Of a stretch of 64,000 nucleotides of DNA, positions 2,355-51,326 are shown in pieces. The DNA is from Selaginella tamariscina. Taxonomy: Eukaryota > Streptophyta > Lycopodiopsida > Selaginellales > Selaginellaceae. A program made the translations under genes and the position numbers. Every line of letters begins with the position of its first letter. The first letter of the stretch is position 1. Location: the NCBI GenBank assembly GCA_003024785.1, contig PUQB01000047.1, positions 813,292 to 877,291 on the forward strand. The letters are read 5' to 3'. The notes under the pieces were generated by a model, which had not been told where the DNA came from, did no database searches, and saw nothing but the letters and a program-made list of their open reading frames with translations.

Positions 2355-3497
2355 GTTGACCTTAGGGTAAGACTCTAAGTCTTCTGTTTAACTAGGCATC
2401 TAAGTTAGATTCTTGGGGTCATCTTAAAAGACTTAGGGTTATTTACACATGGTGATGACATTGGATGACCACTAGGTAGCCACGTTTACCACATGTTGAC
2501 TTTCGGGTTAAAACTTTGACAATTGGTATCGGAGCCTATTCTCTGTAGTCAGTAGGACTGTCTAAAGTTGTATGTGTTTCGAGGTTTAGTTAATTTTAAA
2601 TCCTTGAAGTATTCTATCATTTTTAGCTAACATGTCTGAATTCTACACAGAGAGTTGGTTCTGAGATCTATAACTCTTTAAAAAACATCTATTTCATAAG
2701 TGGGTGTGGGTTATGAACTTCAATGACGAAAGTAACATTCAGAAGGCAACTTCTAAGTTGTATGTTAGGTTACTTTACCTTATGGTTGTCCAAGTTAATT
2801 TATAAAACACTTCCACAAGACATGACAAGTTAGTTTGTTCTGGTTTATAAATTAAGTCTTGTGAAGTGGATCATGTGATATACTAAGTTTACACATTATT
2901 GAAAATTTTCATTTTCTTTAAAGTGTTTGAATTTGGGATAACACATGATTTGGAAATAGATAGTGTTCATTGAATTTTGGCTTAGGTCAGAAAATAGTGT
3001 TTAAACGGGGAAAGGCTTATGTTAAATATGTGTCTTTGACTTCGGAAGAAGGAGCATATTCAAACATAAGAGTGAATACTATATTTTGACAGAAGGTATA
3101 AAATAAGCTCTCATTATAATGCATGTTTTCGAGAGTGTAACTTCAGAAGCAGACTATGGTGATTAATTTATAATACATCATATGATGAATATGTTAAGCA
3201 GTTGGTTCGAATGTAATCAAAGTATTGTCTGATGTTCACAATATTTTGATGACACTAGTTACAAGTAACATTAGGTGGAATAGTTTACTAAGTTCAAGTC
3301 ACCTAATTTGAATATGTACAACTTGAAACCTTAGTTGTACGCGTGCACTTTGTATTCAAGTTAGCTAGCTCAACTAACTTGATGATGAAGTTGTCTCATA
3401 TGAGATCATGAGAGAGACTTGGGATAATAGCTTGAGGATATTATTTTGTTATTAATATAGTTTTGGGGAAGATGGCATGATTTACCAGAAACGAAAA
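2355..3497 (+). mobile_element. LARD-A, segment 1 of 3 (LTR stub and start of internal domain)
   Basis: This is the oldest non-coding LTR element in the window. Positions about 2355-2521 match the last ~165 bp of the 1.7-kb LTRs of elements H to M. They are followed at 2522 by the primer-binding-site motif ATTGGTATCGGAGCC, complementary to the 3' end of initiator methionine tRNA as in many plant LTR elements. The internal domain runs to 3497, where solo LTR H is inserted (duplicated target GAAAA at 3493-3497 and 29369-29373). It resumes at 29369 and again at 51769. Most of the left LTR is not represented. Sequence is clearly more diverged than in I, J and L, which agrees with A being the host of all other insertions. 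Confidence 0.8.
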
Positions 3498-3754
3498 TGT
3501 CATAGTTTTTTACTATGACTCAACTCTTTACTTTGGAGGTTGATTATTGTTACCTACTGTACTATGTTTATGGTCCCTAGATGTAGTGAAAACAGCCCTG
3601 CTTAATGCACTTAGGTGTTTAGGGGTAGTTCGACTGGCTATTTTTAGATGTCACAAGAAACTCTAAGCAAAGGTAGCACTTACCATCTAGAAAACCCACC
3701 CTCAATTTTGACGTCCTAGTTAAGATGATTTTGGCATGTTAAATAGGGTTAGGA

Positions 3755-5519
3755 TGTCATAGTTTTTACTATCACTCAACCCTTTACTTTGGACGTTGAC
3801 TGTTGTTACCTACTGTACTATGTTGATAAGCCCTAGGTGTAGAAGAAACAGGCCCGCTTAGTGCACTTGGATATCTAGTGATGGTCCGGCCGGGTGTCAT
3901 TAGGTATTTGTAAGAAACTCTGGGCGAAGCTAGCACTTCCATCTAGAAAACTCTTACCTTGGTTTTCTGTGTCCCGGTTAGATTAATGGCTAGTTCCGGT
4001 GAGTTCGGCATGTCGGATATGCTTAGAAATACCCCAAGTTTGATAGGTTAGGGTTTAGGGGTTGATGGATAACTCACCAAGTATGTTCCCTCTGGGAATG
4101 AGATTTCAGTGCTAGCCCACTTATGTAAACAGGAAAACAGGGGGGGGCCTTTGTCACATAAATAAAGTATATAGGAGTGAGGGTTCCTAGGTTCGTGATT
4201 GAGCTCGTTACTCTTCTCTCGGTGCAAGCTCTAGCTTGTGTCGTCAAGGCACAACCCTCTGTTGTGCCGCCCTAACTCTCAGATGCCAGGAGTATGTCCC
4301 ACCGTCGGGGTAGCTTACCCTTAACGTTGGCGAATCCATGCCTGGGAGGTCTTGTCGGAATGCACGTTCCAAGAGGCAGAGGTTGAGGCTTGTCTCCAGC
4401 CTCCTCCACGTCAAGCTAGGTGTAGCACTCACGGCAAGCAAGGCACATCCGTGTCCTTGTCCAACTGTGGGCGTGGATCTTGTTTGACAGGTTCATGTTA
4501 CTTGGTTCTTGAGGGTTCATTAAGGGGTTCTAGAGTCGGCATTTAGGAGCCACGTTTGTGGCACTTGGTGCAACTCTTGAATCTAAGGGCTATGGCATGA
4601 TAACCACATCGGGGAAGGTAGTGTCACATGGAGATGTGACACTAGGCTAAATGTCACATGGTACAACGCCTAAGGCACGCCCTTTGGGGTTATGTCATGG
4701 GCTTGTCCCAAGGGTTGGATACTTTAGCAAACAGACATGCTTGTGCTTGCACTAGGTGCTAAGCCTTGGGCATCCGCTCAAGGGAGGTTAGGTCTCATAA
4801 CTAGATTTGCTTTGGCACACTTGGCTAGGGGAGTGTTCTCCTTGGAATTCAAGGGTTGAACAACCTAAACATGTTAGCAAGAGCCCTTTTCGTGAGGCAC
4901 TCGCAAGGTCATGTGCTTAGGGTTATCCCAAACCTAGCCTTAGGGAGTTTGCTTAGCAGAACACTCGTGTCCGCCTACGGCGCACACTCGTGTCCTCACT
5001 AAGTACTAGCCCTAGGTCTAGGGTATAACTTGGCCACTCAAACCCTTAGGGGTTAGTTGTGGTTCAGGGTACCCCTTGTCGCCCTAAAGGGTTGTACTCC
5101 CGGATGAGGGTGATTCCTTAAGGGGTAAGTGACAATGCCTTAACTCTGTCATGGGGTATGTGTGGAACACACGTCTCCTTGATGGGGGTTAGGGCATGAG
5201 CCTGTCTAGGTCTTCTAGGGCAGACCCTAAGTCAACTAGGGTTATCCCTCAAGGGTTTTGGGGGTAGACACTCTAGGGAGACTTAGGCTAAACCCTAAGT
5301 CAACTAGGGTTATCCCTCAAGGGTTTTGGGGGCAGACATTCTAGGGAGACTTAGGCTAAACCCTAAGTCTCTTGTTCATTGGGCATTAGAGTCTAACCTT
5401 AGGGGTCATTGAGATTGTTCTAGGAAACTTAGTGTTGCTCACACAGGGTGATGACGCCAAATGGCCACCTGGCAGCCACATGTTGCCACGTGTTGGCCCT
5501 TTGGGTTAAAACTCTGACA
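3755..5519 (+). repeat. LARD-I 5' LTR
   Basis: It starts TGTCATAG and ends CTCTGACA. It belongs to the LTR subtype that carries AATACCCC in the middle (shared with the right LTR of L and with M), and has two 68-bp tandem units near its 3' end (about 5225-5365). Confidence 0.92.
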
Positions 5520-5536
5520 ATTGGTATCGGAGCCAT
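5520..5536 (+). promoter_or_regulatory. Primer-binding site of LARD-I
   Basis: ATTGGTATCGGAGCC directly follows the LTR end. The same motif follows the 5' LTR of A (2522), J (13865), L (21784), D (minus, ending 44707) and E (minus, ending 59964), and as ATTGGTATTGGAGC in C (32975). It is complementary to the 3' end of plant initiator Met-tRNA except near one base. Confidence 0.88.
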
Positions 5537-7504
5537 TCTCTGCGGTCAGCAGGACTGCCTAAAGTTGTAGTGTTTCAGGGTTTAGTTAGTTCTAAATTTT
5601 TGAAGTACTCTATCACTTTTGACTAACGTCTGAATTCTGCGCGGGGAGTTGGTCCTGAGATTTATAACTCTTCAAAGAACATCTACTTAATAAGTGGGTG
5701 TGGGTTATGGACTCCAATGTCGAAGGTTGCACTCGGAAGGCAACTTCCAAGTTGCATGCTAGGTTACTTTTTCTCTAGGTTACTTAACCTTAAGGTTGTC
5801 CAGGTTACTTTACCATATATTTCCACAAGACATGGCGTGTTAGTTTGTTCTGGCTTACAAACTAAGTCTTGTGAAGTGATCTTGTGATATCCTAAGCTAC
5901 ATTATTGAAAATTTTTCTTTTTCTTTAAGGTGTTTGAATTTGGGATAACACATGATTTGAAACAGAGTGTCCTTTGAGTTTTGGCTTGTCAAGATTCAAT
6001 ATCGTTCCACTGTAGTGTTCAAACGGGGAAAGACTTATGTTCAAAGTGCGTCTTTGACTTCGGAGAAGGGGCATATTCAAACATAAGAATGAACACTACA
6101 TTTATAGTGCATGTTTCCGAGAGTGTAACTCTAGAAGCAGACTATGGTGATGAACTTATAATACAACAAAATGTCAAATATTAACATATGATGAATATGT
6201 TAAGCAGTTGGTTCGAAGATCCAATGTAATCAAAGTATTGTCGATGTTCGCAATATTTTGATGACGCTAGCTGCAAGTAACATTAGGTGGAATAGTTTAC
6301 TAATTCAAGTCCCTGATTTGAACAAAGTATAACTTGAAACCTTAGTTAGTTGTAAGCGCGCACTCTGTATTCAAGTTAGCTAGCTCGACTAACTTGATTA
6401 TGAAGTTGTCTCATATGGGATCATGAGAGAGACTTGGATATAGCTTGAGGATTTGTTTCTTATCAATAGTTTTGGGATAGATGGCATGATCTATCAGAAA
6501 GAGTAATGTTGGAAACATACGTTTACATTTTCAGTTTACTGAGTAATAAGGACTTGCATAGTGAAGGCGTTCGGCGCACACTTGTGCATTTTCATTGTTA
6601 ACTCTTTAATCTTGAAATTGTAACGTTGTTTGCAATGGGGATAAGCTCTTGAACAAGGGTGATTCCTTGGTTAAGAAGAGCATGATTTGGGATTCTCCAC
6701 TTGCTTATGACTAAGTAAGGAAACTTGCTAAGTTTGATAACTTATGTTGGTTCAAATGAGTCAAGTTAGTCGGATTTCCATTGGAGGTTTAAGTGCATGT
6801 ACCTCCTCAGAGAGTCGGTATTCGATGAGAATTAAAGTTGATATTGTTTTCAATATCAATTTCATTTTAGAGTCGAATACGATTATTCAAAAGACGGTTT
6901 CTTGACTTGCATCATGGTCGCAAATGTGGGCACTAAAGAACATAAAGTAGTATCTTCATCTTTGGAATATTGAAAAATAGAACTATTCTTGACTCAAGGT
7001 TTGATTGTATTCCTTGGGTTAGTTTTAGTTCTATCTCAAGGTTTGATGGTGTTCCTTGAGTTGGTTCAATATTCTTAAGTGAATAGCGGGATTAGCTCAA
7101 GAAGATGGTCCCTTCTTGATGATTGTGTCAAGTTCAGTATGTCCAATATTCGGTTAAAATATGAGGTTTCCTATCACCTCATCTTGAGATATTTATATTT
7201 AAACTTTGAAAGAATTTGTGACAATCTTTTAAGATTGATTATAAATGACTTGTCAAAGTATGGTATGATATCTCTTCAATATTGAGTTTGGAGCGCTCAA
7301 TATCAAACTTGGTTATGATCACATGAGGTGGCCGTAATCATATAATATAAAGACTCAAGTGGATTTGAGTCTGACACTTTGGTAAGGCACTACCTTAGTG
7401 TTATAACTTGAAACGTGTTTTCAAGTTAGTTGAGAAATGAGACATTTCTCAATACATTGCTTGAGGGGCAATGGATACTTTCTGGATTGCTAGGTGTCTA
7501 GAGT

Positions 7505-7546
7505 GAATAATGTATCTTAGTTCAATACTGAACTAGATATTTATTC
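7505..7546 (+). other. 42-nt stacked hairpin with about 17 pairs
   Basis: Arms 7505-7510/7541-7546 (GAATAA/TTATTC), 7513-7517/7535-7539 (TATCT/AGATA) and 7519-7524/7529-7534 (AGTTCA/TGAACT) stack with only small bulges around a 4-nt loop. Recognisable equivalents occur in J (about 15920-15965) and L (about 23817-23865). Confidence 0.75.
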
Positions 7547-7960
7547 ATGTTTGGGGAGATCTATTGAATTATAAGGTATGACAAAACATGAAGTTGATAT
7601 AACACTTCAGTGTTATGATAACATTTATGTGGAGGTTGATATCTTACTAAATCATTAGATGAACCAGACACTAGTTCATGATTCCTCTTAGTCTCTGAAC
7701 AAAGTTCCTCGAAATACTGTCGTAACATTATATTCCATCTCAAAATTGAAGTTCGGTTCATGTAAACTAAGACCATGTCTATATTATATTGTAGCATTTG
7801 ATAAATTGATATGATTGTAAGTTTATATCGCTAGTATAACAACTAGTTGATAAGCTTAGGATTTGAACGTTAAAACGATCATTATCCATTCGAGAGTATC
7901 AATATCGAAATTGCAACTGTTTATAGAATAAGGATTAGTTTAAAAAGATGTTTATCAAAA

Positions 7961-8017
7961 CACTAATTGCTTCAATTAGTGAAATGCTATACTTCGGTAT
8001 AGTGTTGAGAAACATTT
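7961..8017 (+). other. Tandem hairpins, the second with a UUCG tetraloop
   Basis: CACTAATTG (7961-7969) pairs with CAATTAGTG (7973-7981). It is followed at once by CTATAC-TTCG-GTATAG (7987-8002), enclosed by AAATG (7982-7986) and CATTT (8013-8017). C(UUCG)G is among the most stable known RNA tetraloops. The 16-nt element is identical in J (16399-16414), L (24302-24317) and A (30877-30892). In D the place is taken by a different stem that also has a TTCG loop. Confidence 0.8.
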
Positions 8018-8082
8018 ACGAAATCAGTTTAAGAGTTGGAAATAAATATAATGTTATGAGCGTGCAGTTTGAGTTCAGAGAG

Positions 8083-8142
8083 ACTCTTATCGTGGAAACT
8101 AAGTTTTAAAATTGGTATTTTTGAACTTAGTGAGATAAGAGT
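8083..8142 (+). other. Long two-part hairpin (9 + 8 bp)
   Basis: ACTCTTATC (8083-8091) pairs with GATAAGAGT (8134-8142), and ACTAAGTT (8098-8105) with AACTTAGT (8124-8131). The terminal loop is A/T-rich. It is well kept in J, with small differences in L, and partly decayed in the old copy A. Confidence 0.75.
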
Positions 8143-8353
8143 TAGGAATTATTGAATGGCATCTAGTATGTTGTGCTCTTTGGAGAATGAGTACAATAAG
8201 TGTCAATTAAGACATGTTACTATCTTAGAGATGAGTTGAATTTCCTGGTTTCCACATTGGTTTTAAGAAAGGTATGTTAGCTTATCTGGTCCCTGAACTG
8301 GTCGGTGTTATGAAAGAGTACAAAGTGTTGCGAAAGACATGGTAGTGCTATCA

Positions 8354-8420
8354 CACTTGGTGGATTTGACTGAATTTGATTCCTATCGGGAATAAATTTA
8401 TGTTAATAACACACCAAGTG
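8354..8420 (+). other. Hairpin with 9-bp outer stem and inner stem
   Basis: CACTTGGTG (8354-8362) pairs with CACCAAGTG (8412-8420). Inside, AATTT-g-ATTCC (8373-8383) pairs with GGAATAAATT (8389-8398). A conserved block without indels begins shortly downstream (about 8440-8650). Confidence 0.75.
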
Positions 8421-9175
8421 ATGGCATTGGTGTTGGCAAGACCTTGTTGTATACATGTGTACAGCCATGCGCCTCTGTGATCGCCTCTGGCCAGATTGAC
8501 ATGTTTACAAAGAACAGGGTTTTACGACTTGTACTCTTATATCGGAAAAGAGCTTGATTCCGATAAAAGTCTCATACTTAGTCTGGCGTAGCTATATACT
8601 AATGAGAGATAGGTATAGTAGCAGACCCTTATGAAAAGGGGTAATGAGAAGCACCGAGGGATGCAGAGATGTAAGCTATAATATCGTAACATGTGAATGT
8701 GGGACCATTGGAAAATCAAAAGAAATGCGAAGGTGTTTGGTCAAGCATTTGAGAAGTGCTTGTTGTGCGTTAGACGACAGAGGTCGTCAACAGCATTTAA
8801 TATTAAGGAATAAAGCAAGTCTTTATTTCTTGTTAACCAAGGGGCCGGCAACAACACTAACTAGAGGCCTCCAATATAAATTCTAGTTAAGTAAAGAAAT
8901 TAACCATTGTGTTGTGTGCGTCGGGTGACAGACTTTGCAGACGTGCAAAAGGTCTCCAAGTGACTTCATGTCGCAGGTGGTGCCTCCGGCAGCTAGGTTT
9001 ACAACTTAGTGAACGACGGTTCTGAAGTACTTGGTTTCGCGTAATGCAAGGGGGGTAATAAAATTATGTGAACTTTTGGCTGACTCCGCATAGAGTGATA
9101 TGTTAGTTTTGGTTAGTTTTCTCTAACATTATCTAGTCTTGGAGTTGGACGTCAACGAGGACGTTGACATTTTCA

Positions 9176-9188
9176 AAGGCGGGGAGTG
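9176..9188 (+). promoter_or_regulatory. Polypurine tract of LARD-I
   Basis: AAAGGCGGGGAGTG lies directly before the 3' LTR and is the expected plus-strand priming site for reverse transcription. Counterparts are at 17606-17619 (J), 25480-25493 (L), 38295-38306 (C, AAAGGCGAGGAG), 40808-40821 (D, minus), 52656-52670 (A) and 54581-54594 (E, minus). Confidence 0.85.
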
Positions 9189-9574
9189 TGTCATAGTTTT
9201 TACTATGACTCAACCCTTTACTTTGGACGTTGACTGTTGTTACCTACTGTACTATGTTGATAAGCCCTAGGTGTAGAAGAAACAGGCCCGCTTAGTGCAC
9301 TTGGATATCTAGTGATGGTCCGGCCGGGTGTCATTAGGTATTTGCAAGAAACTCTGGGCGAAGCTAGCACTTCCATCTAGAAAACTCTTACCTTGGTTTT
9401 CCGTGTCCCGGTTGGATTAATGGCTAGTTCCGGTGAGTTCGGCATGTCGGATATGCTTAGAAATACCCCCAGGTTTGACAGGTTAGGGTTTAGGGGTCGA
9501 TGGATAACTCACCAAGTATGTTCCCTCTGGGAATGAGATTTCAGTGCTAGCCCACTTATGTAAACAGGAAAACA

Positions 9575-9612
9575 GGGGGGGGGGCCTCTGTCACATAAAT
9601 GGTAGTATATAG
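9575..9612 (+). promoter_or_regulatory. LTR core promoter: G-run plus TATA-like box
   Basis: A run of ten G (9575-9584) is followed by CACATAAAT and GTATATAGG. The same order, G-run then CACATAAATAAGG then GTATA, recurs in the LTRs of I, J, L, M, D, C and (as C-runs on the given strand) E. The TATA-like box is the likely transcription start region of both the non-coding and the coding family. No start site was measured. Confidence 0.55.
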
Positions 9613-9685
9613 GAGTGAGGGTTCCTGGGTTCATGACTGAGCTCGTTACTCTTCTCCCGGTGCAAGCTCTAGCTTGTGTCGTCAA

Positions 9686-9706
9686 GGCACAACCCTCTGT
9701 TGTGCC
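9686..9706 (+). other. LTR leader hairpin
   Basis: GGCACAAC (9686-9693) pairs with GTTGTGCC (9699-9706) around a 5-nt loop, about 80-100 nt after the TATA-like box, so it should be near the 5' end of the transcript. The LTRs of C and E keep the pairing through G-U pairs (GGTGCAAC with GTTGTGCC). Confidence 0.6.
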
Positions 9707-10060
9707 GCCCTAACTTCCAGATGCCAGGGGTACGTCCCACCTTCGGGGTAGCTTACCCTTAACGTTGGCGAATCCATGCCTGGGAGGTCTTGTCGGAATG
9801 CACGTTCCAAGAGGCAGAGGTTGAGGCTTGTCTCCAGCCTCCTCCTCCACGTCAAGCTAGGTGTAGCACTCACGGCCAAGCAAGGCACATCCGTGTCCTT
9901 GTCCAACTGTGGCGTGGGATCTTGTTTGACAGGTTCATGTTACTGGTTCCTGAGGGTTCATTGAGGGGTTCTAGAGTTGGCATTTAGGAGCCACGTTTGT
10001 GGCACTTGGTGCAACTCTTGAATCTAAGGGCTATGGCATGATAGCCCACATCGGGGAAGG

Positions 10061-10086
10061 CAGTGTCACATGGAGATGTGACACTG
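10061..10086 (+). other. 10-bp perfect inverted repeat in the LTR
   Basis: CAGTGTCACA (10061-10070) and TGTGACACTG (10077-10086) are separated by 6 nt. Just upstream GGGCTA (10028-10033) pairs with TAGCCC (10042-10047). Both pairs recur in most LTR copies of this family. Confidence 0.7.
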
Positions 10087-10662
10087 GGCTAAACGTCACA
10101 TGGTACAACGCCTGAGGCACGCCCTTTGGGGTTATGTCATGGGCTTGCCAAGGGGTTGGATACTTAGCAAACAGACATGCTTGTGCTTGCACTAGGGTGC
10201 TAAGCCTTGGGCATCCGCTCAAGGGAGGTTAGGTCTCATAACTAGGTGTGCTTTGGCACACTTGGCTAGGGGAGTGTTCTCCTTGGAATTCAAGGGTTGA
10301 ACAACCTAACATGTTAGCAAGCCCTTTCGTGAGGCACTCGCAAGGTCATGTGCTTAGGGTTATCCCAAACCTAGCCTTAGGGAGTTTGCTTAGCAGAACA
10401 CTCGTGTCCGCCTACGGCGCACACTCGTGTCCTCACTAAGTACTAGCCCTAGGTCTAGGGTATAACTTGGCCACTCAAACCCTTAGGGGTTAGTCGTGGT
10501 TCAGGGTACCCCTTGTCGCCCTAAAGGGGTTGTACTCCCGGATGAGGGTGATTCCTCAAGGGGTAAGTGACGATGCCTTAGCTCTGTCAGGGGTATGTGT
10601 GGAACACACGTCTCCTTGATGGGGGTTAGGGCATGAGCCTGTCTAGGTCTTCTAGGGCAAGA

Positions 10663-10798
10663 CCCTAAGTCAACTAGGGTTATCCCTCAAGGGTTTTGGG
10701 GGTAGACACTCTAGGGAGACTTAGGCTAAACCCTAAGTCAACTAGGGTTATCCCTCAAGGGTTCTGGGGGCAGACATTCTAGGGAGACTTAGGCTAAA
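10663..10798 (+). repeat. Two 68-bp tandem units with telo-box motif
   Basis: CCCTAAGTC starts recur at 10663, 10731 and 10799, giving a 68-bp period. Each junction reads GGCTAAACCCTAAGTC, which contains the plant telo-box AAACCCTA. Two units are present in I, L and D; only one in J and M. Confidence 0.8.
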
Positions 10799-12160
10799 CC
10801 CTAAGTCTCCTGTCCACTTGGGCATTAGAGTCTAACCCTAGGGGTCGTTGGGGTTGTTCTGGGAAACTTAGCGTTGCTCACACAGGGTGATGACGCCAAA
10901 TGGCCACTGGCAGCCACGTGTTGCCACGTGTTGGCCCTTTGGGTTAAAACTCTGACATAGGAACACCCCTAGAGTTGACTTAACCCTAGGGTTGCCCTAA
11001 CCCACACCCTAAAACCCCCATCCCCCTTGGGTAGGGTTTAGGGGTAGGGGTTAGTGTTCAAACTCATCTCATTAACTAAGGGGCTGGCATTCCACTTTAC
11101 ACATACAGGAAAAGAGGGGAGAGAGGGGAAGGGGGAGGGGGGAGGGGAGGGCTCCATCACATAAATAAGGTAAAGTATGAGTAGGAGAGCTTCTGGGTTC
11201 ATGACTGAGTTCTTTACTCTTCTGCCGGTGCAAGCTCTAACTTGTGTCATTAAAGCACAACCCTCTGTTGTGCCACCCTACCAGATGACAGGGGTACGTC
11301 CCACCTTCGGGGTAGCTTACCCTTAACATTGATGAATCCATGCCTGGGAGGTCTTGTAGGGATGCACATTCCAAGAGGCAGAGGTTAAGGCTTGTCTCTA
11401 ACCTCCTCCTCCACGTCAAGCTAAGTGTAGCACTCATAGCCAAGCAAGGCTCATCCGTGTCCTTGTCCAATTGTGGGCGTGGGATCTTGTTTGACAAGTT
11501 TACATTATCCAGTTCTTAAGAGTTCACCAAGGGTTCTAGAGTTGGCATTTAGGAACCACATTTGTGGCACTCTTGAATCTAAGGGCTATGGCATGATAGC
11601 CCACATCGTGGAAGGCAGTGTCACATAAAGATGAGACACTAGGCTAGACGTCACACGATACATTGCCCGAGGCACGCTCTTTGGGGTTGTGTCATGGGGT
11701 TTGTCTCGAAGGGGTGGATACTCTGGTAAACAGGCATGTTTGTGCTCGCACTAGGGTGCTAATTCTGGGCGTTTACTCAAGGGAGGTTAGGTTTCATAAT
11801 TAGGTGTGCTTAAGCACACTTGGCTAGGGGAGTGTTCTCCTTGGAATCCAGAGGTTGAACAACCTAAGCTTAGCCCTTTCGTGAAGCACTCGCAAGGTCA
11901 TGTACTTAGGGTTATCCAAACCTAGCTTAAGGGAGTTTGCTTAGTAAAACACTCATGTCCGCCTATGGCGCACACTCGTGCCCTCACTAAGTATTAGCCC
12001 TAGGTCTAGGGTATAACTTGATCACTCAAACCCTCAAGGGTATCATGGTTTAGGTACCCCTTGTCGCCCTAAAGGGGTTGTAAGCCCAAATGAGGGTGAT
12101 TCCTCAAGGGGTAAGTGGCGATGCCTTAGCTTTGTCACGGGGGCTGTGTAAAGCACATCT

Positions 12161-13864: not shown

Positions 13865-16800
13865 ATTGGTATCGGAGCTATTCTCTGCGTCAGTAGGACT
13901 GCCTAAAGTTGTAGTGTGTTTCAGGGTTTAGTTAGTTCTAAATTTTGAAGTACTTTATCACTTTTGGCTAACGTCTGAATTCTGCGTAGAGAGTTGGTCC
14001 TGAGATCTATAACTTTTCAGAGAACACCTACTTCATAAGTGGGTGTGGGTTATAGACTCCAATGTTGGGTAGCACTTGGAAGGCAACTTCCAAGTTGCAT
14101 GCTAGGTTACTTTTCTCAAGGTACTTTACCTTATGAATGTTCAGGTTACTTTACCATATACTTCACAAGACGTGGCGTGTTAGTTTGTTCTGGCTTACAA
14201 AACTAAGTTGTGAAGTGGATCATGTGATATGCTAAGTTTACACATTATTGAAAATTTTTCTTTTTCTTTAAGGTGTTGAATTTGGGATAACACATGATTT
14301 GAAACAACATAGTGTCCATTGAGTTTTGGCTTAGTCAAGATTCAATATCGTTTCCAGTAATAGTGTTCAAATGGGGAAAGACTTATGTTCAAAGTGCGTC
14401 TTTGACTTCGGAAGAAGGGGCATATTCAAACATAAGAGTAAACACTACATTTTGACATAAAGTGTAAATAAGCTCTCATTATAGTGCATATTTCCGAGAG
14501 TGTAACTCTAGAAGCAGACTATGGTTGAACTTAATACAACGAATGTCAAATATTAACATATGATGAATATGTTAAGCAGTTGGTTCAAACATCCAATGTA
14601 ATCAAAGTATTGTCCGATGTTCGCAATATTTTGATGATGCTAGCTAGCTAGGTAAAGTATTGAAATAGTTTACTAAGTTCAAGTTACCTAATTTGAACAT
14701 GTACAACTTGAAACCTTAGTTAGTTGTAAGCGCGCACTCTGTATTCAAGTTAGCTAGCTGGCTAACTTGATTATGAAATTATCTCATATGGGATCATAAG
14801 AATGAGATAGAATAATAGATTTTGGTAGTAGACGGATTTAATGTTGCATCCCTATATGCAGCTTTTTGGATGGATGGCATGATCTATCACAAAGAGTAAT
14901 GTTGGAAACATACGTTTACATTTTCAGTTTACTGAGTAATGAAGGACTTGCATAGTGAAGGCGTTCGGCGCACACTTGTGCATTTTTCATTGTTAACTCT
15001 TTAATCTTGAAATCTGTAACGTTGTTTGCAATGTGGGATAAGCTCTTGAACAAGGGTGATTCCTTGGTTAAGAAGAGCATGATTTGGGTTCCACTTTGTT
15101 TATCAAGTAAGGAAACTTGCTAAGTTTGATAACTTATGTTGAGAATTACAAATGAGCTAGTAACAGTCGGATTTCCATTGGAGGTTTAAGTGCATGTGCC
15201 TCCTCAGAGAGTCGGTATTCGATGAGGATTCAAAAGTTGGTATTGTTTTCAATAACGATTTCATTTTAGAGTCGAATACGATTATTCAAAAGACGGTTTC
15301 TTGACTTTGCATCATGGTCGCAAATGTGGGGACTCAAAGAACTTATAAAGTAGGTATCTTCAGTTCTTTAGAATATTGAAAAATTAGAACTATTCTTGAC
15401 TCAAGGTTTGATTGTTTCCTTGGGTTAGTCTTTGGTTCTATCTCAAGGTTTGATGGTGTTCCTTGACCTTGTTCAATATTCTTGAAAGTGAAGTAGCGGG
15501 ATTAGTTCAAGAAGATGGTCTCCCTTCTTGATGATTGTGATACAATGTCATAACGTATGTCCAATATGGTACAAAATATGAGGTTTCCTATCACCTCATC
15601 ATTGAGATATTCATATTCTTAAACTTTGAAAGTATTTATGAAGTCTTTTAAGATTGATTATAAATGACTTGTCAAAGTATAGTATGGTATCTCTTGAATA
15701 TTGAGTTTGGAGCGCTCAATATAAACTTGGTTATGATCACATGAGGTGGCCATAATCATAAATATAAAGACTCAAGCGACTTGAGTCAACACTTTGGTAA
15801 GGCATACCTTAGTGTTATAACTTGAAATGTGTTTTCAAGTTAGTTGAGAAATGAGCATTTCTCAATACATTGCTTGAGGGGCAATGTGTACTTTCTGGAT
15901 TACTAGGTGTCTAGAATGAATAATGTATCTTAGTTCGACATACTGAACTAGATATTATTCATGTTTGGGGAGATCTATTGAATTATAAGGTATGACGGAA
16001 ACATGAAGTTGATATAACACTTTAGTGTTATGATAACATTTATGTGGAGGTTGATATCTTACTAAATCAGTTAGATGAACCAGACACTAGTTCATGATTC
16101 TCTTAGTCTCTGAAAAAGTTCCTCGAAATACTGTCATAACATTATATTTGTCTCAAAATTCAAGTTCGGTTCATGTAAACTAAGACCATATTTATAATGT
16201 AGTTGTAGCATTTGATAAATTGATATGATTGTAAGTTTATATCCTAGTATAACAACTAGTTGATAAGCTTAGGATTTACGTTAAAACGATCATTATCCAT
16301 TCAAGAGTATCAATATCGAAATTGCGACATTTATAGAATAAGGATTAGTTTTAAAAAGATGTTTATAAAAACACTAGTTGCTTCAATTAGTGAAAATGCT
16401 ATACTTCGGTATAGTGTTGAGAAACATTTACGAAATCAGTTTAAGAGTTGGAAATAAATATAATGTTATGGAGGCGTGCAGTATTCTGAATTCAGAGAGA
16501 CTCTTATCGTGGAAACTAAGTCTTAAAATTTGGTATTTTGAACTTAGTGAGATAAAGAGTTAGGAAGTATTGAACGGCATCTAGTATGATGTGCTCTTTG
16601 GGGAATGAGTACAATGAGAGTGACAATTAAGACGTGTTTTTTAAAGATTGTCGATTGAGGCATTAGAGATGGTTGAATTTCCTGGTTTCCACATTAGTTT
16701 GTAAGAAAGGTATGTTAGCTTATCTGGTCCCTGAACTGGTCGGTGTTATAAAGAGTACAAAGATGGTTGCGAAGGACGAATGGTAAGGCTATCACACTTG

Positions 16801-17619
16801 GTCGGATTTGACTGAATTTGATTCCTATCGGGAATAAATTTATGTTAATAACACACCAAGTGAATGGCAGTTGGTAGATTGGCAAGACCTTGTTGTATAC
16901 ATGTGTACAGCCATGCGCCTCTGTGATCGCCTCTGGCCAGATTGACATGTTTACAAAGAACAGGGTTTTACGACTTGTACTCTTATATCGGAAAAGAGCT
17001 TGATTCCGATAAAAGTCTCATACTTAGTCTGGCGTAGCTATATACTAATGAGAGATAGGTATAGTAGCAGACCCTTATGAAAAGGGGTAATGAGAAGCAC
17101 CAGGGATGCAGAGATGTAAGCTATAATATCGTAACATGTGATGTGGGACCATTGGAAAATCAAAAGAAATGCGAAGGTGTTTGGTCAAGCATTTGAGAAG
17201 TGCTTTGTGTGTTAGACAACAGAGGTCGTCAACAGCATTTAATATTAAGGAATAAAGCAAGTCTTTATTTCTTATTAACCAAGGGGCCGGCAACAACACT
17301 AACTAGAGGCCTCCAATATAAATTCTAGTTAAGTAAAGAAATTAAAGTGTTGTGTGCGTCGGGTGACAGACTTTGCAGACGTGCAAAAGGTCTCCAAGTG
17401 ACTTCATGTCGCAGGTGGTGCCTCCGGCAGCTGGGTTTACGACTCAGTGAACGACGGTTCTGAAGTACTTGGTTTCGCGTAATGCAAGGGGGTAATAAAA
17501 TTATGTGAACTTTTGGCTAACTCTGCATAGTTAGTTTTTGGTTAGTTTTCTCTAACATTATCTAGTCTTGGAGTTGGACGTCAACGAGGACGTTGACATT
17601 TTTCAAAAGGCGGGGAGTG
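13865..17619 (+). other. LARD-J non-coding internal domain
   Basis: Same order of hairpins as in I, for example GACTCAAG/CTTGAGTC near 15770-15790, TCAAGAAG/CTTCTTGA near 15508-15532 with a longer loop than in I, and the UUCG hairpin at 16399-16414. The longest open frames are under 80 codons, overlap in several phases and match nothing I know. Confidence 0.75.
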
Positions 17620-21783: not shown

Positions 21784-24700
21784 ATTGGTATCGGAGCCTA
21801 TTCTCTACGGTCAGTAGGACTACCTAAAGTGTAGTGTATTTTAGGGTTTAGTTAGTTCTAAATTCTTGAAGTACTCTATCACTTTCGGCTAATGTCTGAA
21901 TTCTGCGTGGAGAGTTGGTCCTGAGATCTATAACTCTTCAGAGTACACCTACTTCATAAGTGGGTGTGGGTTATGGACTTAGAAGGTAGCACTTGGAAGT
22001 CAGCTTCCAAGTTGTATGCCAGGTTATTTTACCTTATGGTTGTCCAGGTTACTTTACCATTTACTTCCACAAGACAAGGCATGTTAGTTTGTTCTGGCTT
22101 ACAAACTAAGTCTTGTGAGATGGGCTTGTGATATCCTATTCTACACATTATTGAAAATTTTTCTTTTTCTTTAAGGTGTTTGAATTTGGGATAACACATG
22201 ATTTGAGAACAGACATGTCCATTGAGTTTTGGCTTAGGTCAAGATTCAATATCGTCCAACTAGTGTTCAAACGGGGAAAGACTTATGTTCAGAAGTGCAT
22301 CTTTGACTTCGGAGAAGGGGCATATTCAAACATAAGAATGAACACTACATTTTGACATAAAGTGTAAAATAAGCTCTTATTATAGTGCATGTTTCCGAGA
22401 GTGTAACTCTAGAAGCAGACTATGGTGATGAACTTATAATACAACGGAATGTCAATATTAACATATGATGAATATGTTAAGCAGTTGGTTCGAAGATCCA
22501 ATGTAATCAAAGTATTGTCCGATGGATAATACTTTGATGACGCTAGCTGCAAGTAACATTAGGTGAAATAGTTTACTAAGTTCAAGTCGTTTGATTTGAA
22601 CAAAGTACAACTTGAAACCTTAGTTGTTGTAAGCGCGCACTTTGTATTCAAGTTAGCTTAACTTGATTATGAAGTTATCTCATGTGGATCTAAGAATGGG
22701 ATAGAATAATATATTTGGCAGTAGACGGATTTAATGTTGCATCCCTATCAATGCAACTTTTGGGATAGATGGCATGATCTATCAGAAAGAGTAATGTTGG
22801 AAACATACGTTTACATTTTCAGTTTACTGAGTAATGAAGGACTTGCATAGTGAAGGCGTTCGGCGCACACTTGTGCATTTTCATTGTTAACTCTTTAATC
22901 TTGAAATCTGTAACGTTGTTTGCAATGTGGGGTAAGCTCTTGAACAAGGGTGATTCCTTGGTTAAGAAGAGCATGATTTGGGATTCTTCACTTGTTATTG
23001 ACTAAGTAAGGAAACTTGCTAAGTTTATAACTTATGTTGGTTCAAATGAGTCGAAGTTAGTCGGTATACATTTTGGAGGTTTAAGTGCATGTACCTCCTC
23101 AGAGAGTCGGTGTTCGATGAGAATTGAAGTTGATATTGATTTTCAATATCAATTTTATTTTAGAGTCGAATACGATTATTCAAAAGACGGTTTCTTGACT
23201 CTGCATCATGGTCGCAAATGTGGGCACTTAAAGAACAAATAAAGTATGTATCTTCAATCTTTCGAATATTGAAAAATAGAACTATTCTTGACTCAAGGTT
23301 TGATTGTATTCCTTGGGTTAGTTGTTAGTTCTATCTCAAGGTTTGATGGTGTTCCTTGAGTTGGTTCAATATTCTTGTAAGTATGATATTGTGTAGCGGA
23401 TTAGCTCAAGAAGATGGTGTCCCTTCTTGATGATTGTAGTTCAAGGTTCGTCCAATATCTTCGAGAATATGAGGTTTCCTATCACCTCATCTGTTGAGAT
23501 ATTTATATTCTAAACTTTGGCAGAATTTGTGACAATCTTTTCAAGATTGGTTATAAATGACTTGTCAAAGTATATATGATATCTCTTCAATATTGAGTTT
23601 GGAGCGCTCAATATCAAACTTGGTTATGATCACATGAGGTGGCCGTAATCATATAATATAAAGACTCAAGTGGATTTGAGTCTGACACTTTGGTAAGGCA
23701 CTACCTTAGTGTTATAACTTGAAACGTGTTTTCAAGTTAGTTGAGAAATGAGACATTTCTCAATACATTGCTTGAGGGGCAATGTGATACTTTCTGGATT
23801 GCTAGGTGTCTAGAGTGAATAATGTATCTTAGTTCAATGTACTGAACTAGATATTTTATTCATGTTTGGGGAGATCTATTGAATTATAAGGTATGACTAA
23901 AACATGAAGTTGATATAACACTTCAGTGTTATGATAACATTTATGTGGAGGTTGATATCTTACTAAATCAATTAGATGAACCAGACACTAGTTCATGATT
24001 CCTCTTAGTCTCTGAACAAAGTTCCTCGAAATACTGTCATAACATTATATTCCATCTCAAAATTGAAGTTCGGTTCATGTAAACTAAGACCATGTCTATA
24101 TTATAGTTGTAGCATTTTGATAAATTGATATGATTGTAAGTTTATATCCTAGTATAACAACTAGTTGATAAGCTTAGGATTTGAACGTTAAAACGATCAT
24201 TATCCATTCGAAGTATCAATATCGAAATTGCAATTTTTATAGAATAAGGATTAGTTTAAAAAGATGTTTATCAAAACACTAATTGCTCAATTAGTGAAAT
24301 GCTATACTTCGGTATAGTGTTGAGAAACATTTACGAAATCAAGTTTAAGAGTTGGAAATAAATATAATGTTACGGAGGCGTACAGTATTACGAGTTCAGA
24401 GACTCTTATCGTGGAAACTAAGTTTTAAAATTTGGTATTTTGAACTTAGTAGATAAGAGTTAGGAAGTATTGAACGGCATCTAGTATGATGTGCTCTTTG
24501 GGAATGAGTACAATGAGAGTGTTAATTAGAGTGTTATCTAAAGATTGATTGAGGCACTAGAGATGGGTTGAATTTCCTGGTTTCCACATTGGTTTGTAAG
24601 AAAGGTATGTTAGCTTATCTGGTCCCTGAACTGGTCGGTGTTATGAAAGAGTACAAAGTTGATTGTGAAAGACGAATGGTAGGCTATCACACTTGTCGTG

Positions 24701-25493
24701 ATTTGACTGAATTTGATTCCTATCGGGAATAAATTTATGTTAATAACACACCAAGTGGATGGCAGTTGTAGATTGGCAAGACCTTGTTGTATACATGTGT
24801 ACAGCCATGCGCCTCTGTGATCGCCTCTGGCCAGATTGACATGTTTACAAAGAACAGGGTTTTACGACTTGTACTCTTATATCGGAAAAGAGCTTGATTC
24901 CGATAAAAGTCTCATACTTAGTCTGGCGTAGCTATATACTAACGAGAGATAGGTATAGTAGCAGACCCTTATGAAAAGGGGTAATGAGAAACACCGAGGG
25001 ATGCAGAGATGTAAGCTATAATATCATAACATGTGGACCATTGGAAAATCAAAGAAATGCGAAGGTGCTTGTTGTGCGCTAGATGACAGGGTCGTCAACA
25101 GCGTTTAATATAAGGAATAAAGCAAGTCTTTATTTCTTATTAACCAAGGGGCCGGCAACAACACTAACTAGAGGCCTCCAATATAAATTCTAGTTAAGTA
25201 AAGAAATTAACCAGTGTTGTGTGCGTCGGGTGACAGACTTTGCAGACGTGCAAAAGGTCTCCAAGTGACTTCATGTCGCAGGTGGTGCCTCCGGCAGCTG
25301 GGTTTACGACTCAGTGAACGACGGTTCTGAAGTACTTGGTTTCGCGTAATGCAAGGGGGTAATAAAACTTATGTGAACTTTTGGCTGACTCCACATAGAG
25401 TGATATGTTAGTTTTGGTTAATTTTTTCTAACATTATCTAGTCTTGGAGTTGGACGTCAACGAGGACGTTGACATTTTCAAAGGCGGGGAGTG
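21784..25493 (+). other. LARD-L non-coding internal domain
   Basis: Its hairpin chain is equivalent to that of I, including the UUCG hairpin (24302-24317) and the block around 24790-24990, which is almost unchanged between copies. No credible protein-coding frame. Confidence 0.75.
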
Positions 25494-29368: not shown

Positions 29369-31169
29369 GAAAATGTTGAAAACATACGTTTACACTTTTC
29401 AGTTTATTGAGTAATGAAGGACTTGCATAGTGAAGGTGTTCAACACACACTTGTGCATTTTTATTATTAACTCTTTAAGCTTGAAATTTGTAACATTGTT
29501 TGTAATGTGGGGATAAGCTCTTGAACAAGGGTGATTCCTTGCTTAAGAAGAGCATGATTTGGGATTCTCCACTTTACTTATTGACTAAGTAAGGAAACTT
29601 GCTAAGTTTGATAAGTTATGTTTGTGGTGTCAAATGAGCCGGAAGCTAGTTGGATATACATTTTGGAGGTTTAAGTGTATGTACCTCCTCAAGAGAGCTG
29701 GTATTTAGTGAGAATTAAAAGTTGGTATTGGGTTTCAATATTGATTTCATTTTAGAGTCGAATACGGCTATTAAAAAAAAAAAAAAATCGATTTCTTGAC
29801 TTGGTATCATGGTCGCAAATATGGGCACTTGAAGAACATATGAAGTATGTATCTTCAGTCCTCTAGATTATTGAAAAGTGAGACTTTGTTTAACTCAAAG
29901 CTTGATGGTGTTCCTTAAGTTCAGTTTAATGTCCATGTAAGTGTAAAGTAGAGTTGCTAAATTAGCTCAAGAAGTTGGTATCCCTTTTTGATGATTATGA
30001 TACAATGTTCCAAGCATACGGTCCAAAATCCGATTCAAGAATATAAGGTTTCCTATCACCTCATCTGTAAAGATATTTATATTCTACACTTTCGAAGTAT
30101 TTGTAACAATCTTTGTAAGATTGGTTATAAATGACTTGGCAAAGGATGAAATAATATTTTGAATATTAAGTTTGGAGCTCTCAATATTGAGACTTGGTTA
30201 TGATCACATGAGGTGGCCATAAAATGAAATATAAAGACTCAAACGAATCTGAGTTCGACACTTTGGTAAGGCAGTACCTTAGTGTAGTAACTTAAAATGT
30301 ATTTTCAAATTAGTTGAGAAATGAGGCGTTTCTTAATACATTGCTTGAGGAGTAATGTGGTACTTTGTGGATGGCTAGGTGTCTAAAATGAATAGTGTAT
30401 CTTAATTCGACATACTGAACTAGATATCTTATTCATGTTTGGGGAGATTTGCTGAATTAAGAGATATGACTGAAACATGAAGTTAGTGTGGTGCTTCAAT
30501 GTCATGATAACATTAATGTAGAAGATAATATCATATTAAATTAGTTAGATGAACCAAGCACTAATTCATAATTCCTCTTAGTCTCTAAACAATTCCTCGG
30601 AATACTGTTGTAACAATATCATGTTCATCTCAAAGCTGATGTTTGGTTCATATCAACTAAGTCCAAAGTCCATATTACAATTCTTGCATTTCAATAAAAT
30701 GATATGTTGTAAAGTCATATCTGCTAATGTAAAACTAGTAGAAAAACTAGAGATTTGAATGTTAAAACATTATTAATTCAAAGGTATCAATATCAAAATT
30801 GCAACTGTTTATGGAATAAGGATTAATTTAAAAAGATGTTTATCAAAAACACTAATTGCTCAAGTTAGTGGAAATGCTATACTTCGGTATAGTGTTGAGA
30901 AACATTTACATAATCAATTTGAGAATTGAAATAAATATAATGTTACGAAATTGTGCAGTATTAAGAGTTCAGGGAGACTCTTATCATGGAAACTAAGTTT
31001 TGAAATTTGGTATTTTGAACTTAGTGAAATAGGGAGTTAGGAATCATGAAATGGCATCTAGTATGTTGTGCTCTTTGGAGAATGAGTACAATGAAAGTGT
31101 CAGTTAAGACACGTGCTATTTAAAGATCGCCAATTGAGGCATTAGAGATGGGTTGAATTTCCTAGTTTC
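29369..31169 (+). mobile_element. LARD-A, segment 2 of 3 (internal domain)
   Basis: Continues the internal domain of A after H, from the GAAAATGTTG junction to GTTTC at 31165-31169, where element B inserted. It is homologous to the middle of the internal domains of I, J and L but visibly older, with several stems weakened. The UUCG hairpin is intact at 30877-30892. It holds a run of about 15 A near 29775. Confidence 0.8.
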
Positions 31170-31530
31170 TGTCAAGCCACGATCCAAGAATTAGGAACCA
31201 CGAACAAAACAAGAGCAGGAGGCAAGGAGCAAAACAAGACAAGACAAAAGATTGATCGTAGAAAGACTGGTGTTGATAGTAACTGATTGTACAACAATTA
31301 GGTCGGAGCTTTTATGCTCACAACTCCAAGCTAATCTGGTCATGAGTCTAATCTAGTCATGAACTAAAAATAGTGACCCTTATCCTCTAGGCATATCCTG
31401 TAGCATATTCTATAGGCATATCTGTAGGAATATCCTGTAGGTATATCTTGTAGGAATATCCTGTAGGAATATCTAGTAGATATATCCAATATCCTATAAC
31501 CCGTATCCTGTATCCTGTATCCGGAATCCA
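31170..31530 (-). repeat. Element B 3' LTR
   Basis: It starts TGTCAAGCCACGATCC on the given strand, matching the reverse complement of the end of the LTR of G. It holds the degenerate 13-bp repeat TATAGG-ATAT-CC at about 31390-31495. The inner boundary is approximate. Confidence 0.7.
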
Positions 31531-31999: not shown

Positions 32000-32974
32000 T
32001 GTCATAGTTTTTATTATGACTCGACCTTTACTTTGGGGTTTGATTGTTGTTACTTACCGAGTTGTGTGACGAACCCTAGTTGTAGTGAGAAATAGCCTCG
32101 CTTAATGCACTTAGGTGTTAAGGGTAGTTTGACTGGCTGTCACTAGTACCTCGAGAAACTCTAGGCGAAGGTAGTACTTACCCTTTAAAAAACTCTCCCC
32201 TAGTTTGACGTTACAAAGATAGGTTTTCTATTAAATATAGCTTGTCAAAAAGGGTTAGGGACACCCCTAGGGTTGACCTAACCCTAGGGTTGCCCTAACC
32301 CCACGCCCTAATACCCCCCCTAGGGGTTAAGTTTAGGGTTAGGTTAGGACAATCATTTTCTCTAAGGGCTGGCATTTCTGTGCCGGCCCACTTTCTCACT
32401 TAAGTAAATAGGGGGGGGGGGGGTTCGTCACATAAATAAGGTAGAGTATATGTAGTGAAGCTTTCTGGGTTCAAAAGAGAGCTCGTTAACCTCCTACCAG
32501 TGCAAGCTAAGCTTGTGTCATCAAGGTGCAACCCTCCGTTGTGCCGCCCAAACTTCTACATGACAGGGTACAACCCACCCAAGGGTTAGACTACCCTTAT
32601 CGTTGGCAGGATCTTGCCTTTGAGATAGGGCATGTCACTTCAAAGGAGTTAGTCAAATTCCTTGGTTCAAAACCTGCTCGCAAGCTCAAAGGCATTGCTT
32701 GAGTTCACGTTCCGCAAAACTAGTGGTTGAGGCCTTGCTCCGGCCGCTTCAACCACTCCAAGCTAGGAACGACACCTAAAGCTCGGCTAGTCAATGTATC
32801 CTGATTCACAAGGTGAGTCTCGTTCATGGACTTAGTCAGCTAGGGGTTTGAGTTCCTAGGGCTTGGGTTCCTAATATGGGTTATTTTACCAGATTCTATG
32901 GGGTTTCTAGAGAGGGGATTTCAGGGTTGGCACCTAGCAAGCCGCCTTTGTGGCATCAGGTAAAAACTTTAACA
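32000..32974 (+). repeat. Element C 5' LTR
   Basis: 975 bp, about half the LARD LTR length. The first ~700 bp follow the LARD LTR word for word in places (TTTTTATTATGACTCGACC, CACCCCTAGGGTTGACC, CACATAAATAAGG), and its 3' part is different. A G-run and TATA-like box lie at 32411-32452. Confidence 0.88.
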
Positions 32975-51236: not shown

Positions 51237-51326
51237 CATGATCTATGAAAGGAAAAAGAAGGAGAAAAAATCAAGAAAAAAAAGTAACTGGGAATCGGAG
51301 AGTTATGAAAGGAATTACTATCAAAC

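Follow-up and report, generated by a model that had tools for sequence, protein, structure and literature searches.

Introduction

The internal domains of the first LARDs reportedly measured about 3.5 kb, and the original 2004 LARD paper is said to have described conserved RNA structure in elements of the Sukkula type, whose LTRs reportedly measure about 4.4 kb. That non-coding retrotransposons retain conserved sequence over kilobases calls for an explanation. Excerpts of PMC7215508 state that LARDs and TRIMs have conserved RNA secondary structure; TRIMs such as Cassandra are said there to be non-coding, trans-dependent and to specify conserved RNA structures. Triticeae LARDs (Sukkula type) have a large non-coding internal domain between long LTRs and are presumed to be mobilised in trans. 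Dasheng / RIRE2 of rice, as described in excerpts of PMC9033089 that mention no folded core, involves a non-autonomous element with ends common to a complete Ty3/gypsy element. The genome-scale ordered RNA structure of RNA viruses consists of consecutive stem-loops with high MFED and constraint at paired sites; excerpts of PMC7642675 give MFED values of 15% for SARS-CoV-2 and 23.4% for the highest virus, obtained with another window size and shuffler than ours.

Here we examined a window of 64,000 nucleotides from Selaginella tamariscina (the whole stretch analysed), which carries a non-coding, presumably trans-dependent LTR retrotransposon of 7.2 kb that is like each of these systems in the general features just named. 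Compared with Sukkula, by description only, it comes from another plant and has LTRs of 1.77 kb, and a polymorphism-based selection test was applied to it. It differs from TRIMs, in which the LTRs are short and an internal domain is nearly absent, and from RNA viruses in being non-coding and DNA-borne and in having pair positions largely conserved between lineages. We read the element as a non-autonomous LTR retrotransposon of LARD type. Its internal domain (3.67 kb in copy A, 3.90 kb in copy D) is shorter than the 4 kb that a review sets as the lower limit for LARDs (PMC9033089, in excerpt), and because this length threshold is disputed we use the label LARD-type. LARDs with conserved RNA structure have already been described, and the Selaginella element is a strong further case; among titles and abstract openings, a literature search found none on this element family. 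The fold appears to be kept by selection, and it therefore seems to be the folded RNA that counts in this element. With the private changes of dead copies as a neutral yardstick, our results indicate that the retained trait is base pairing of the transcript. Many copies, deep relics and possible helpers are present in one genome, and the role of the fold is therefore directly testable. For one probe, a first search of the genome gave 1568 candidate copies.

Element anatomy and presumed helper

Copy A, its relatives in the window and a Ty3-type element of the presumed-helper type have the following features.

2520..3497, plus strand: relic fragment G, 5' part (comparison)
3750..3754, no strand: target site duplication TAGGA, left copy, flanking the 5' LTR
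3755..5519, plus strand: 5' LTR, starting TGTCATAG and ending TGACA
5520..5702, plus strand: 5' leader, common to Ty3-type elements (alignment)
5522..5534, plus strand: putative primer binding site tggtatcggagcc (read by eye)
5824..8955, plus strand: non-coding hairpin-rich core (inverted repeats, folding)
8823..9188, plus strand: 3' end of the internal domain, common to Ty3-type elements (alignment), with a purine-rich run last (by eye)
9189..10957, plus strand: 3' LTR (LTR comparison)
10958..10962, no strand: target site duplication TAGGA, right copy, flanking the 3' LTR
13865..17619, plus strand: internal domain of copy B (comparison, folding)
21784..25493, plus strand: internal domain of copy C (comparison, folding)
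29372..31170, plus strand: relic fragment E of the internal domain, a deep lineage (comparison)
32000..38970, plus strand: Ty3-type element of the presumed-helper type, whose gag, protease, RT, RNase H, SH3 and chromo domains lie in separate ORFs (domain search)
40808..44707, minus strand: internal domain of copy D, with LTR mismatch of 0.27% and target duplication GTTAG (comparison, folding)
51769..52671, plus strand: relic fragment F, 3' part (comparison)

The earlier note, made from the sequence alone, had read 5824-8955 as a non-coding LARD core, and this reading was borne out: the stretch lies in the internal domain of copy A, which is flanked by LTRs and has a longest ORF of 80 aa, and no retrotransposon protein genes lie between the LTRs. 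The LTR pair of copy A shows 2.85% mismatch over 1756 aligned bases. The copy is nested in an older LTR, with related LTR sequence at 3498-3751 and from 10958. Short target duplications, as from integrase insertion, were found for copies A (TAGGA) and D (GTTAG); none was seen for copies B and C. The putative primer binding site at 5522-5534 is presumably of the initiator-tRNA-Met type, and the purine-rich run just 5' of 9189, read by eye, is a candidate polypurine tract. An Rfam search of 3740-10970 gave 0 matches at E<=1. Copies diverged from A by 3-7%, and D by 10.5%.

The leader matched the minus-strand Ty3-type element at 77% over 189 columns, and its first 82 bases matched the plus-strand one at 84% over 85 columns. 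The segment 8823-9188 matched Ty3-type elements at 84-86% over 367-375 columns, and 8292-8326 aligned only weakly, over 35 columns, with the pol end. Judging by these common ends, the element is presumed to be mobilised in trans. As a LARD-type element it would be non-autonomous, its transcript a non-coding genomic RNA in which the internal 3.7 kb would fold into a chain of local hairpins, some abutting directly. What it may have retained of a Ty3/chromodomain ancestor is limited to the ends, needed in priming, in integration and probably in packaging, with reverse transcription and integration presumably performed by Ty3/chromodomain-element proteins. A compact, hairpin-rich RNA could be favoured by competing well for Gag particles and might also be hard to translate or degrade.

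Folding of the internal domain

The following hairpins and domains of the core are referred to below.

6818..6880, plus strand: nested hairpin with inner 12-bp stem 6835-6862 (inverted repeats)
6964..7075, plus strand: three stacked stems, 6964-7075, 6977-7034 and 6989-7022 (inverted repeats)
7210..7251, plus strand: long hairpin that has 19 pairs in the structure predicted from relics
7300..7720, plus strand: most strongly folded domain (folding vs shuffles)
7404..7428, plus strand: first of three consecutive hairpins, 10-bp stem (predicted pairing)
7429..7453, plus strand: second of the three, 11-bp stem (predicted pairing)
7455..7473, plus strand: third of the three (predicted pairing)
7503..7548, plus strand: long hairpin that has 20 pairs in the structure predicted from relics; prediction finds its best pairs in 14 of 14 relics
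7984..8005, plus strand: hairpin whose loop in copy A is UUCG with a closing C-G pair (inverted repeats, folding profile)
8082..8143, plus strand: stacked hairpin with inner stem 8098-8131 (inverted repeats, relic structure)

Spacers between the three consecutive hairpins are zero or one base long, and the loop of 7984-8005 differs from relic to relic. Run against the window with a cut-off of E<=10, a covariance model of 7403-7551 gave 13 hits: five (E below 1e-38) were copies A-E and the other eight (E 0.0024-4.1) all lay inside copies A-D, with no match in the Ty3-type elements.

The sense strand of 7300-7720 folded at -138.6 kcal/mol, compared with -94.6 ± 5.5 in 100 shuffles (z -8.05), so that the folding check proposed in the earlier note placed the energy far outside the shuffled range; the antisense strand gave z -5.68. 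MFED, the excess of folding energy over shuffles, was 19.2-31.3% in every one of the 42 copies tested, a set that leaves out E, F and G. On the antisense strand MFED was equally high, so energy alone cannot assign the strand. The mean profile of 8 copies reached 55.4% at 7320-7569, 45.9% at 7470-7719 and 48% at 7770-8019, and an excess over dinucleotide-matched shuffles was seen across most of the internal domain, as in genome-scale ordered RNA structure. The "nearly continuous" chain described earlier thus held for most of the core but not for the weak windows 7620-7869 (3.9%) and 8220-8469 (8.0%).

Constraint on base pairing

To assess constraint, variants of 44 copies were compared at pairs predicted from A in a McDonald-Kreitman-like test; all p-values here and below are uncorrected for multiple testing. 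Private variants were as dense in paired columns (311 in 1148) as in unpaired ones (439 in 1625), whereas variants in at least 4 copies numbered 84 in the paired versus 210 in the unpaired columns (Fisher p = 1.2e-4). At a threshold of 3 copies, pairing-breaking types gave p = 4.5e-4 and pairing-keeping types showed no significant effect (p = 0.27). By piece, p was 0.071 in the core, 0.12 in the 5' piece and 0.0056 in the 3' piece.

Relic-defined pairs were adopted for comparing relics with young copies because, with a structure derived from A, events on the lineage leading to A are counted with a bias. At 508 pairs defined from relics alone in three pieces, with expectations from unpaired columns and L051 and L052 left out, breaking majority changes were depleted (10 against 32.5 expected, an expectation that their p-value takes as error-free). 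Keeping changes numbered 23 against 29.5, giving a keep fraction of 0.70 versus 0.476 (p = 0.0086). The core had a keep:break ratio of 13:3, or 14:3 in an earlier count on a slightly different pair set, and the 5' piece had 6 single events. In the 3' piece taken alone, breaking changes were as many as expected (4 against 4.0). This test replaces a Fisher contrast of fixed with private changes, since their spectra differ: fixed changes are richer in transitions and the p = 4e-5 of that contrast was overstated; between relic-paired and unpaired core columns, p was 0.07. Counts on pairs of young copies (19 keeping, 0 breaking) were discarded for ascertainment bias. A tree-based comparison of internal with terminal branches in the core gave an odds ratio of 1.00 for paired vs unpaired columns, and likewise no effect for keeping vs breaking changes.

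Across 73 pairwise comparisons with permuted differences, broken pairs were below expectation in all 73 (ratio 0.38-0.97); many of these deficits were not significant singly, and we take them as supporting only. An excess of compensatory over one-sided changes, the other mark of selected stems named in the earlier note, was missing from near copies (5 two-sided pair types vs 1-6 in slid controls) and reached p<0.05 in only 2 of the 73 comparisons. It was weakly visible in a 17-sequence alignment, where covariation lay only slightly above shuffles: 18 cells changed on both sides vs 10.9 ± 2.6, and 13 pairs vs 9.7 ± 2.2 (48 of 500 shuffles as high). The evidence for selection is mainly conservation together with wobble-preserving single changes.

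The earlier proposal that the core is selected as RNA gained support from the folding energy, from constraint on shared but not private variants and from the sense pairing described below, and selection on RNA structure is highly probable. As a whole, a folded, hairpin-rich LARD-type RNA, mobilised in trans and selected for compaction that favours packaging, is the best explanation and a reasonably probable one; the step from compaction to packaging, our preferred inference, is more tentative.

Selection could instead concern a few discrete RNA elements, such as packaging, dimerisation or export signals, with the rest of the chain incidental. The uneven profile (46-55% in 7320-7719, 48% in 7770-8019, 3.9% in 7620-7869 and 8-21% from 8070 on) would fit this, as would the variation between pieces in the depletion of breaking changes and the palindrome GCTAGC, which lies at the loop of the hairpin 6371-6397 and through which two RNAs could pair. 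However, stem constraint was also found outside 7020-8232 (pooled odds ratio 1.64, p = 0.003), and we regard this alternative as credible but on the unlikely side.

Conservation of the fold across lineages

Relic lineages, 14-18% diverged, carry many of these hairpins. In the young structure, 185 of 228 relic pairs were found again, and 220 relic pairs were paired in 95.1% of cells, compared with 36-43% when slid. The relic structure and the 508-pair test thus show that RNA secondary structure is conserved in the internal domain, as in LARDs. D was left out of the core alignment, in which its part matching 7756-8126 does not align, and relics L067, L079, L089 and L091 were left out for short or no matches.

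Simulated drift of three copies lowered MFED from 26-29% to 12.5-15.6% at 5% random substitution and to 2.0-6.2% at 16%. Among 18 of the 53 core sequences compared with drift, L051 (11% from A) kept a core-piece MFED of 26.0% vs 6.8-9.9% in five simulations at 11%, and relics E, L049, L054 and L055 (9.0-12.9%) were little above the drift remainder. MFED fell weakly and non-significantly with private divergence (Spearman -0.18, p = 0.25).

The fold might instead guard the RNA or hide it from host nuclease, silencing or translation, like the ordered structure of RNA virus genomes. In favour of this, folding is spread over most of the internal domain at or above the levels of the viruses in the excerpts of PMC7642675. 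Pair positions are, however, largely kept across lineages here and, according to those excerpts, poorly conserved in coronaviruses. We consider protection rather than packaging an unlikely purpose. More improbable is that the core is a dedicated structured ncRNA, its position-specific architecture kept since the deepest sampled lineages, which would act in trans on helper Gag, for example as a superior particle nucleator; the element would then be an RNA satellite with the fold as its sole gene product.

Sense-strand pairing

Among single majority changes, 24 of 34 kept sense pairing, compared with 90 of 272 private changes; by the antisense rule, same-type counts were 4 of 25 and 62 of 243, the core antisense-rule count including two-sided changes. 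Majority changes thus kept pairing through G-U on the sense strand and not via the antisense equivalent, which suggests that the transcript is what selection acts on. Of the 14 keeping changes in the core, 8 were A>G and 6 were G>A, so they do not stem from a mutational bias in one direction. In the 17-sequence alignment, the G-U to A-C ratio was 64:51 vs 175:205 in unpaired columns, not significant by types (p = 0.09); by cells, p was 0.006. Stems with G-U allowed showed no clear asymmetry between sense and antisense.

These counts bear on a mutational origin, in which reverse transcriptase would switch templates within hairpins and perfect imperfect palindromes as a functionless by-product. 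Watson-Crick inverted repeats raise folding equally on both strands, the LTRs fold too (MFED 15-17%), and 8-bp repeats are 3-4 times over expectation in flanking DNA, all of which speaks for such a process. Yet correction of arms should often change both arms, and only 2 doubles were seen in the 508 pairs, with an excess in 2 of the 73 comparisons; it should also ignore sense G-U vs A-C, which the majority changes do not. We consider this origin very unlikely.

Inverted repeats and genome controls

Perfect Watson-Crick inverted repeats with loops of 3-40 were counted against 20 dinucleotide shuffles. The core (5824-8955) had 18 with arms of at least 8 bp (2.6 ± 1.6 in shuffles), 10 of at least 9 (0.8), 30 of at least 7 (9.6) and 65 of at least 6 (34.4): the excess is 7-fold for arms of at least 8 bp and 12-fold for at least 9 bp, and chance accounts for roughly half of the 6-bp arms, which say little by themselves. 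The dense perfect hairpins seen earlier thus exceed AT-rich expectation, and the examples named (7503-7548, 8082-8143, 6818-6880 and 6964-7075, with their inner stems) are present. For arms of at least 8 bp, the internal domains of copies B, C and D had 20 vs 2.6, 19 vs 2.9 and 17 vs 2.2, and relic E 5 vs 1.7. The LTRs had 5 vs 1.3 and 8 vs 1.4, the internal domains of the two Ty3-type elements 8 vs 2.8 and 9 vs 3.0, the left gene region 0 vs 1.5, and the right flanks 7 vs 2.2 (46900-51700) and 10 vs 2.5 (59970-64000). The excess peaks in the LARD-type element, and a 3-4 fold excess is found elsewhere in the window too.

Ten stretches from arbitrary places in the genome served as controls, with MFED taken per strand; one (L096) was all N. 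Seven gave -4.3 to 8.0%. Chance or AT-rich composition, under which 6-bp arms are indeed common (34 expected), is refuted by the shuffles for both repeats and folding, with these seven ordinary controls also speaking against it, and can be dismissed. One control matched the LARD-type element by BLAST, being another copy, and gave 30.6 / 34.3%. Strong folding is unusual in the genome, yet the LARD-type element is not the sole case: control L099 reached 27.5 / 18.4% without any sequence similarity to the window.

Structure of the element

PMC7215508 describes LARDs as specifying well-conserved RNA secondary structures. Structured LARDs are already known; the present element folds strongly, and selection on its RNA pairing was tested directly. 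The label "LARD-type" was chosen because the internal domain of copy A (3.67 kb) falls short of the threshold of more than 4 kb given for LARD internal domains in the review PMC9033089. Self-comparison of the window placed copy A within an older LTR and identified further pieces of the element (the relic fragments E, F and G). The long copies are laid out as follows.

3755-5519, plus strand: 5' LTR of copy A
5520-9188, plus strand: internal domain of copy A
9189-10957, plus strand: 3' LTR of copy A (2.85% mismatch between the LTRs)
3750-3754 and 10958-10962: target duplication of copy A, TAGGA
12161-19292: copy B
19953-27252: copy C
38970-46545, minus strand: copy D

The A internal domain contained no ORF longer than 80 aa in an ORF listing and gave no match in an Rfam search. 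A 701-base probe from its hairpin-rich core returned 1568 first-look candidates in the 300.7-Mb assembly; identity was at least 93% in all 40 that were scored.

Insertions across 2431-59969 are nested in layers, as A is, and next to the cluster lie remnants of PPR protein genes, with an E motif (1142-2087). Judged by LTRs, D is the youngest of the four copies (0.27% mismatch; target duplication GTTAG); it starts where the 3' LTR match of a Ty3-type element ends. Within its internal domain (40808-44707), the segment corresponding to 7756-8126 fails to align with the other copies, which we read as swapped or inserted sequence. The LTRs of C differ by 8.6%, yet its internal domain folds as well as those of young copies; C is perhaps a recombinant.

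Inverted repeats and folding energy

An earlier note had described 5824-8955 as a near-continuous hairpin chain, denser than chance and selected as RNA. The density was borne out: perfect inverted-repeat arms of at least 8 bp were 7 times, and those of at least 9 bp 12 times, as frequent as expected from shuffles. The energy excess over dinucleotide shuffles (MFED) was also present, at 25.4% across 42 copies (sd 2.0). In 250-base windows, sense or plus strand, MFED was 20-26% in the four internal domains, 15-17% in LTRs, 9% in Ty3-type domains and -0.1 to 4.8% in flanks. Mean z in 120-base windows was -1.39 to -2.01 (sense) and -0.99 to -1.54 (antisense) in the four domains, -1.1 to -1.5 in the A LTRs, about -0.7 in Ty3-type internal domains (sense) and +0.14 to -0.45 in flanks. 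Antisense MFED, in %, equalled the sense level, as any perfect inverted repeat predicts. Averaged over eight copies, the MFED profile peaked at 7320-7719 (46-55%) and 7770-8019 (48%) and dipped at 7620-7869 and 8220-8469; the 421-base peak 7300-7720 reached z -8.05 sense and -5.68 antisense. For comparison, PMC7642675, using 350-base windows and a different shuffler, gives 23.4% for the vertebrate virus that scored highest, 15% for SARS-CoV-2, 7.5-10.7% for HCV and 1.1% for unstructured viruses.

Strong folding was seen in one of eight genome controls outside the family. This arbitrary control (L099, 1-2500), without similarity to the window, had MFED of 27.5% / 18.4%; read by eye, its reverse strand resembles a gene for reverse transcriptase, and short TCCTGTA/TACAGGA motifs are repeated. 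In another control (L101, 261-1741), long TC, TA and AG dinucleotide runs probably account for the 42 inverted repeats counted. The flanks 46900-51700 (7 vs 2.2) and 59970-64000 (10 vs 2.5) carry 8-bp inverted repeats at 3-4 times the shuffled level, and despite this excess their folding energy is close to shuffles.

Conservation of the structure

Sequences of relic lineages differing from A by 14-18% in the core were retrieved, and their flanks were included at a later stage. Structures were predicted for 14 relics individually and then voted, a pair being kept if it occurred in at least 5 of 14. The vote predicted 220 pairs arranged in 27 helices, including:

7404-7473: three abutting hairpins
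7503-7548: 20-pair hairpin

Across 17 sequences, 95.1% of cells at the 220 pairs were paired, compared with 36-43% when partners were slid. A second relic vote gave 228 pairs, and a vote among ten young copies recovered 185 of them. MFED was retained in lineages L051 (11% from A; 26.0%), L053 (17%; 19.6%), L050 (16%; 20.3%) and L048 (20.5%), and was lower in E, L049, L054 and L055 (9.0-12.9%). Simulated random drift from A or C left 6.8-9.9% at 11% divergence and -0.1 to 10.1% at 16%; L051, L053, L050 and L048 hold more structure than random drift leaves.

Tests of selection on base pairing

The first test used pairs predicted from A alone in 44 copies, with private variants as the yardstick; these showed the same density in paired as in unpaired columns. 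Variants common to at least 4 of the 44 copies were rarer in stems (84 in 1148 paired vs 210 in 1625 unpaired columns; p = 1.2e-4, uncorrected, like all p-values of the selection tests, for the number of tests). At a threshold of 3 copies the scarcity held for pair-breaking types (p = 4.5e-4) but not for pair-keeping types (p = 0.27). By piece, p was 0.12 for 5520-7019, 0.071 for the core (7020-8232) and 0.0056 for 8233-9188; the pooled outer pieces gave OR 1.64, p = 0.003.

The second test took relic-defined pairs and counted as fixed the majority changes between relics (at least 60% agreeing) and young copies (at least 70%), against the change spectrum at unpaired columns, an expectation that carries its own error. 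Keeping changes numbered 23 (29.5 expected) and breaking changes 10 (32.5 expected), plus 2 doubles. Keeping/breaking counts were 13/3 in the core (18.2/18.3 expected) and, with few events, 3/3 in the 5' piece (10.0/12.8 expected); in the 3' piece alone breaking changes were not depleted (7/4 vs 3.8/4.0 expected).

Under the sense rule (G-U allowed) pairing was kept in 24 of 34 single changes, and under the antisense rule (A-C allowed) in 4 of 25. Causes that operate at the DNA level, or equally on the two strands, do not predict this sense-only preference. Formal covariation, a check proposed by the earlier note, was only slightly above shuffles, and compensatory doubles were scarce. A branch test on the tree was null.

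Relation to Ty3-type elements and proposed role

Two Ty3-type elements in the window resemble the A internal domain at both of its edges. The final 366 bases of the domain match the internal 3' ends of both elements at 84-86%; at the 5' edge, similarity covers the first 183 bases for the minus-strand element (77%) and the first 82 for the plus-strand one (84%). The plus-strand element has five open frames, covering gag, protease, RT, RNase H, and SH3 and chromo domains; two frames tested in the minus-strand element gave SH3 and RT.

The RNA of a non-autonomous LTR element must be packaged by the Gag of another element. The LARD-type element probably retains the ends for priming and integration, which by analogy may also serve packaging, and carry a folded RNA between them. 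A compact branched RNA would plausibly be favored in packaging by another element's Gag, and may additionally resist translation and decay. Alternatively, specific signals within the hairpin chain may matter instead of the compact fold as such; 7300-7720 is the strongest candidate for one.

A hairpin at 6371-6397 has the palindrome GCTAGC in its loop region and is a candidate RNA-RNA kissing site. Within the core, 8292-8326 weakly matches the 3' end of Ty3-type pol (80% over 35 columns, E 0.009), a possible trace of the element's origin.
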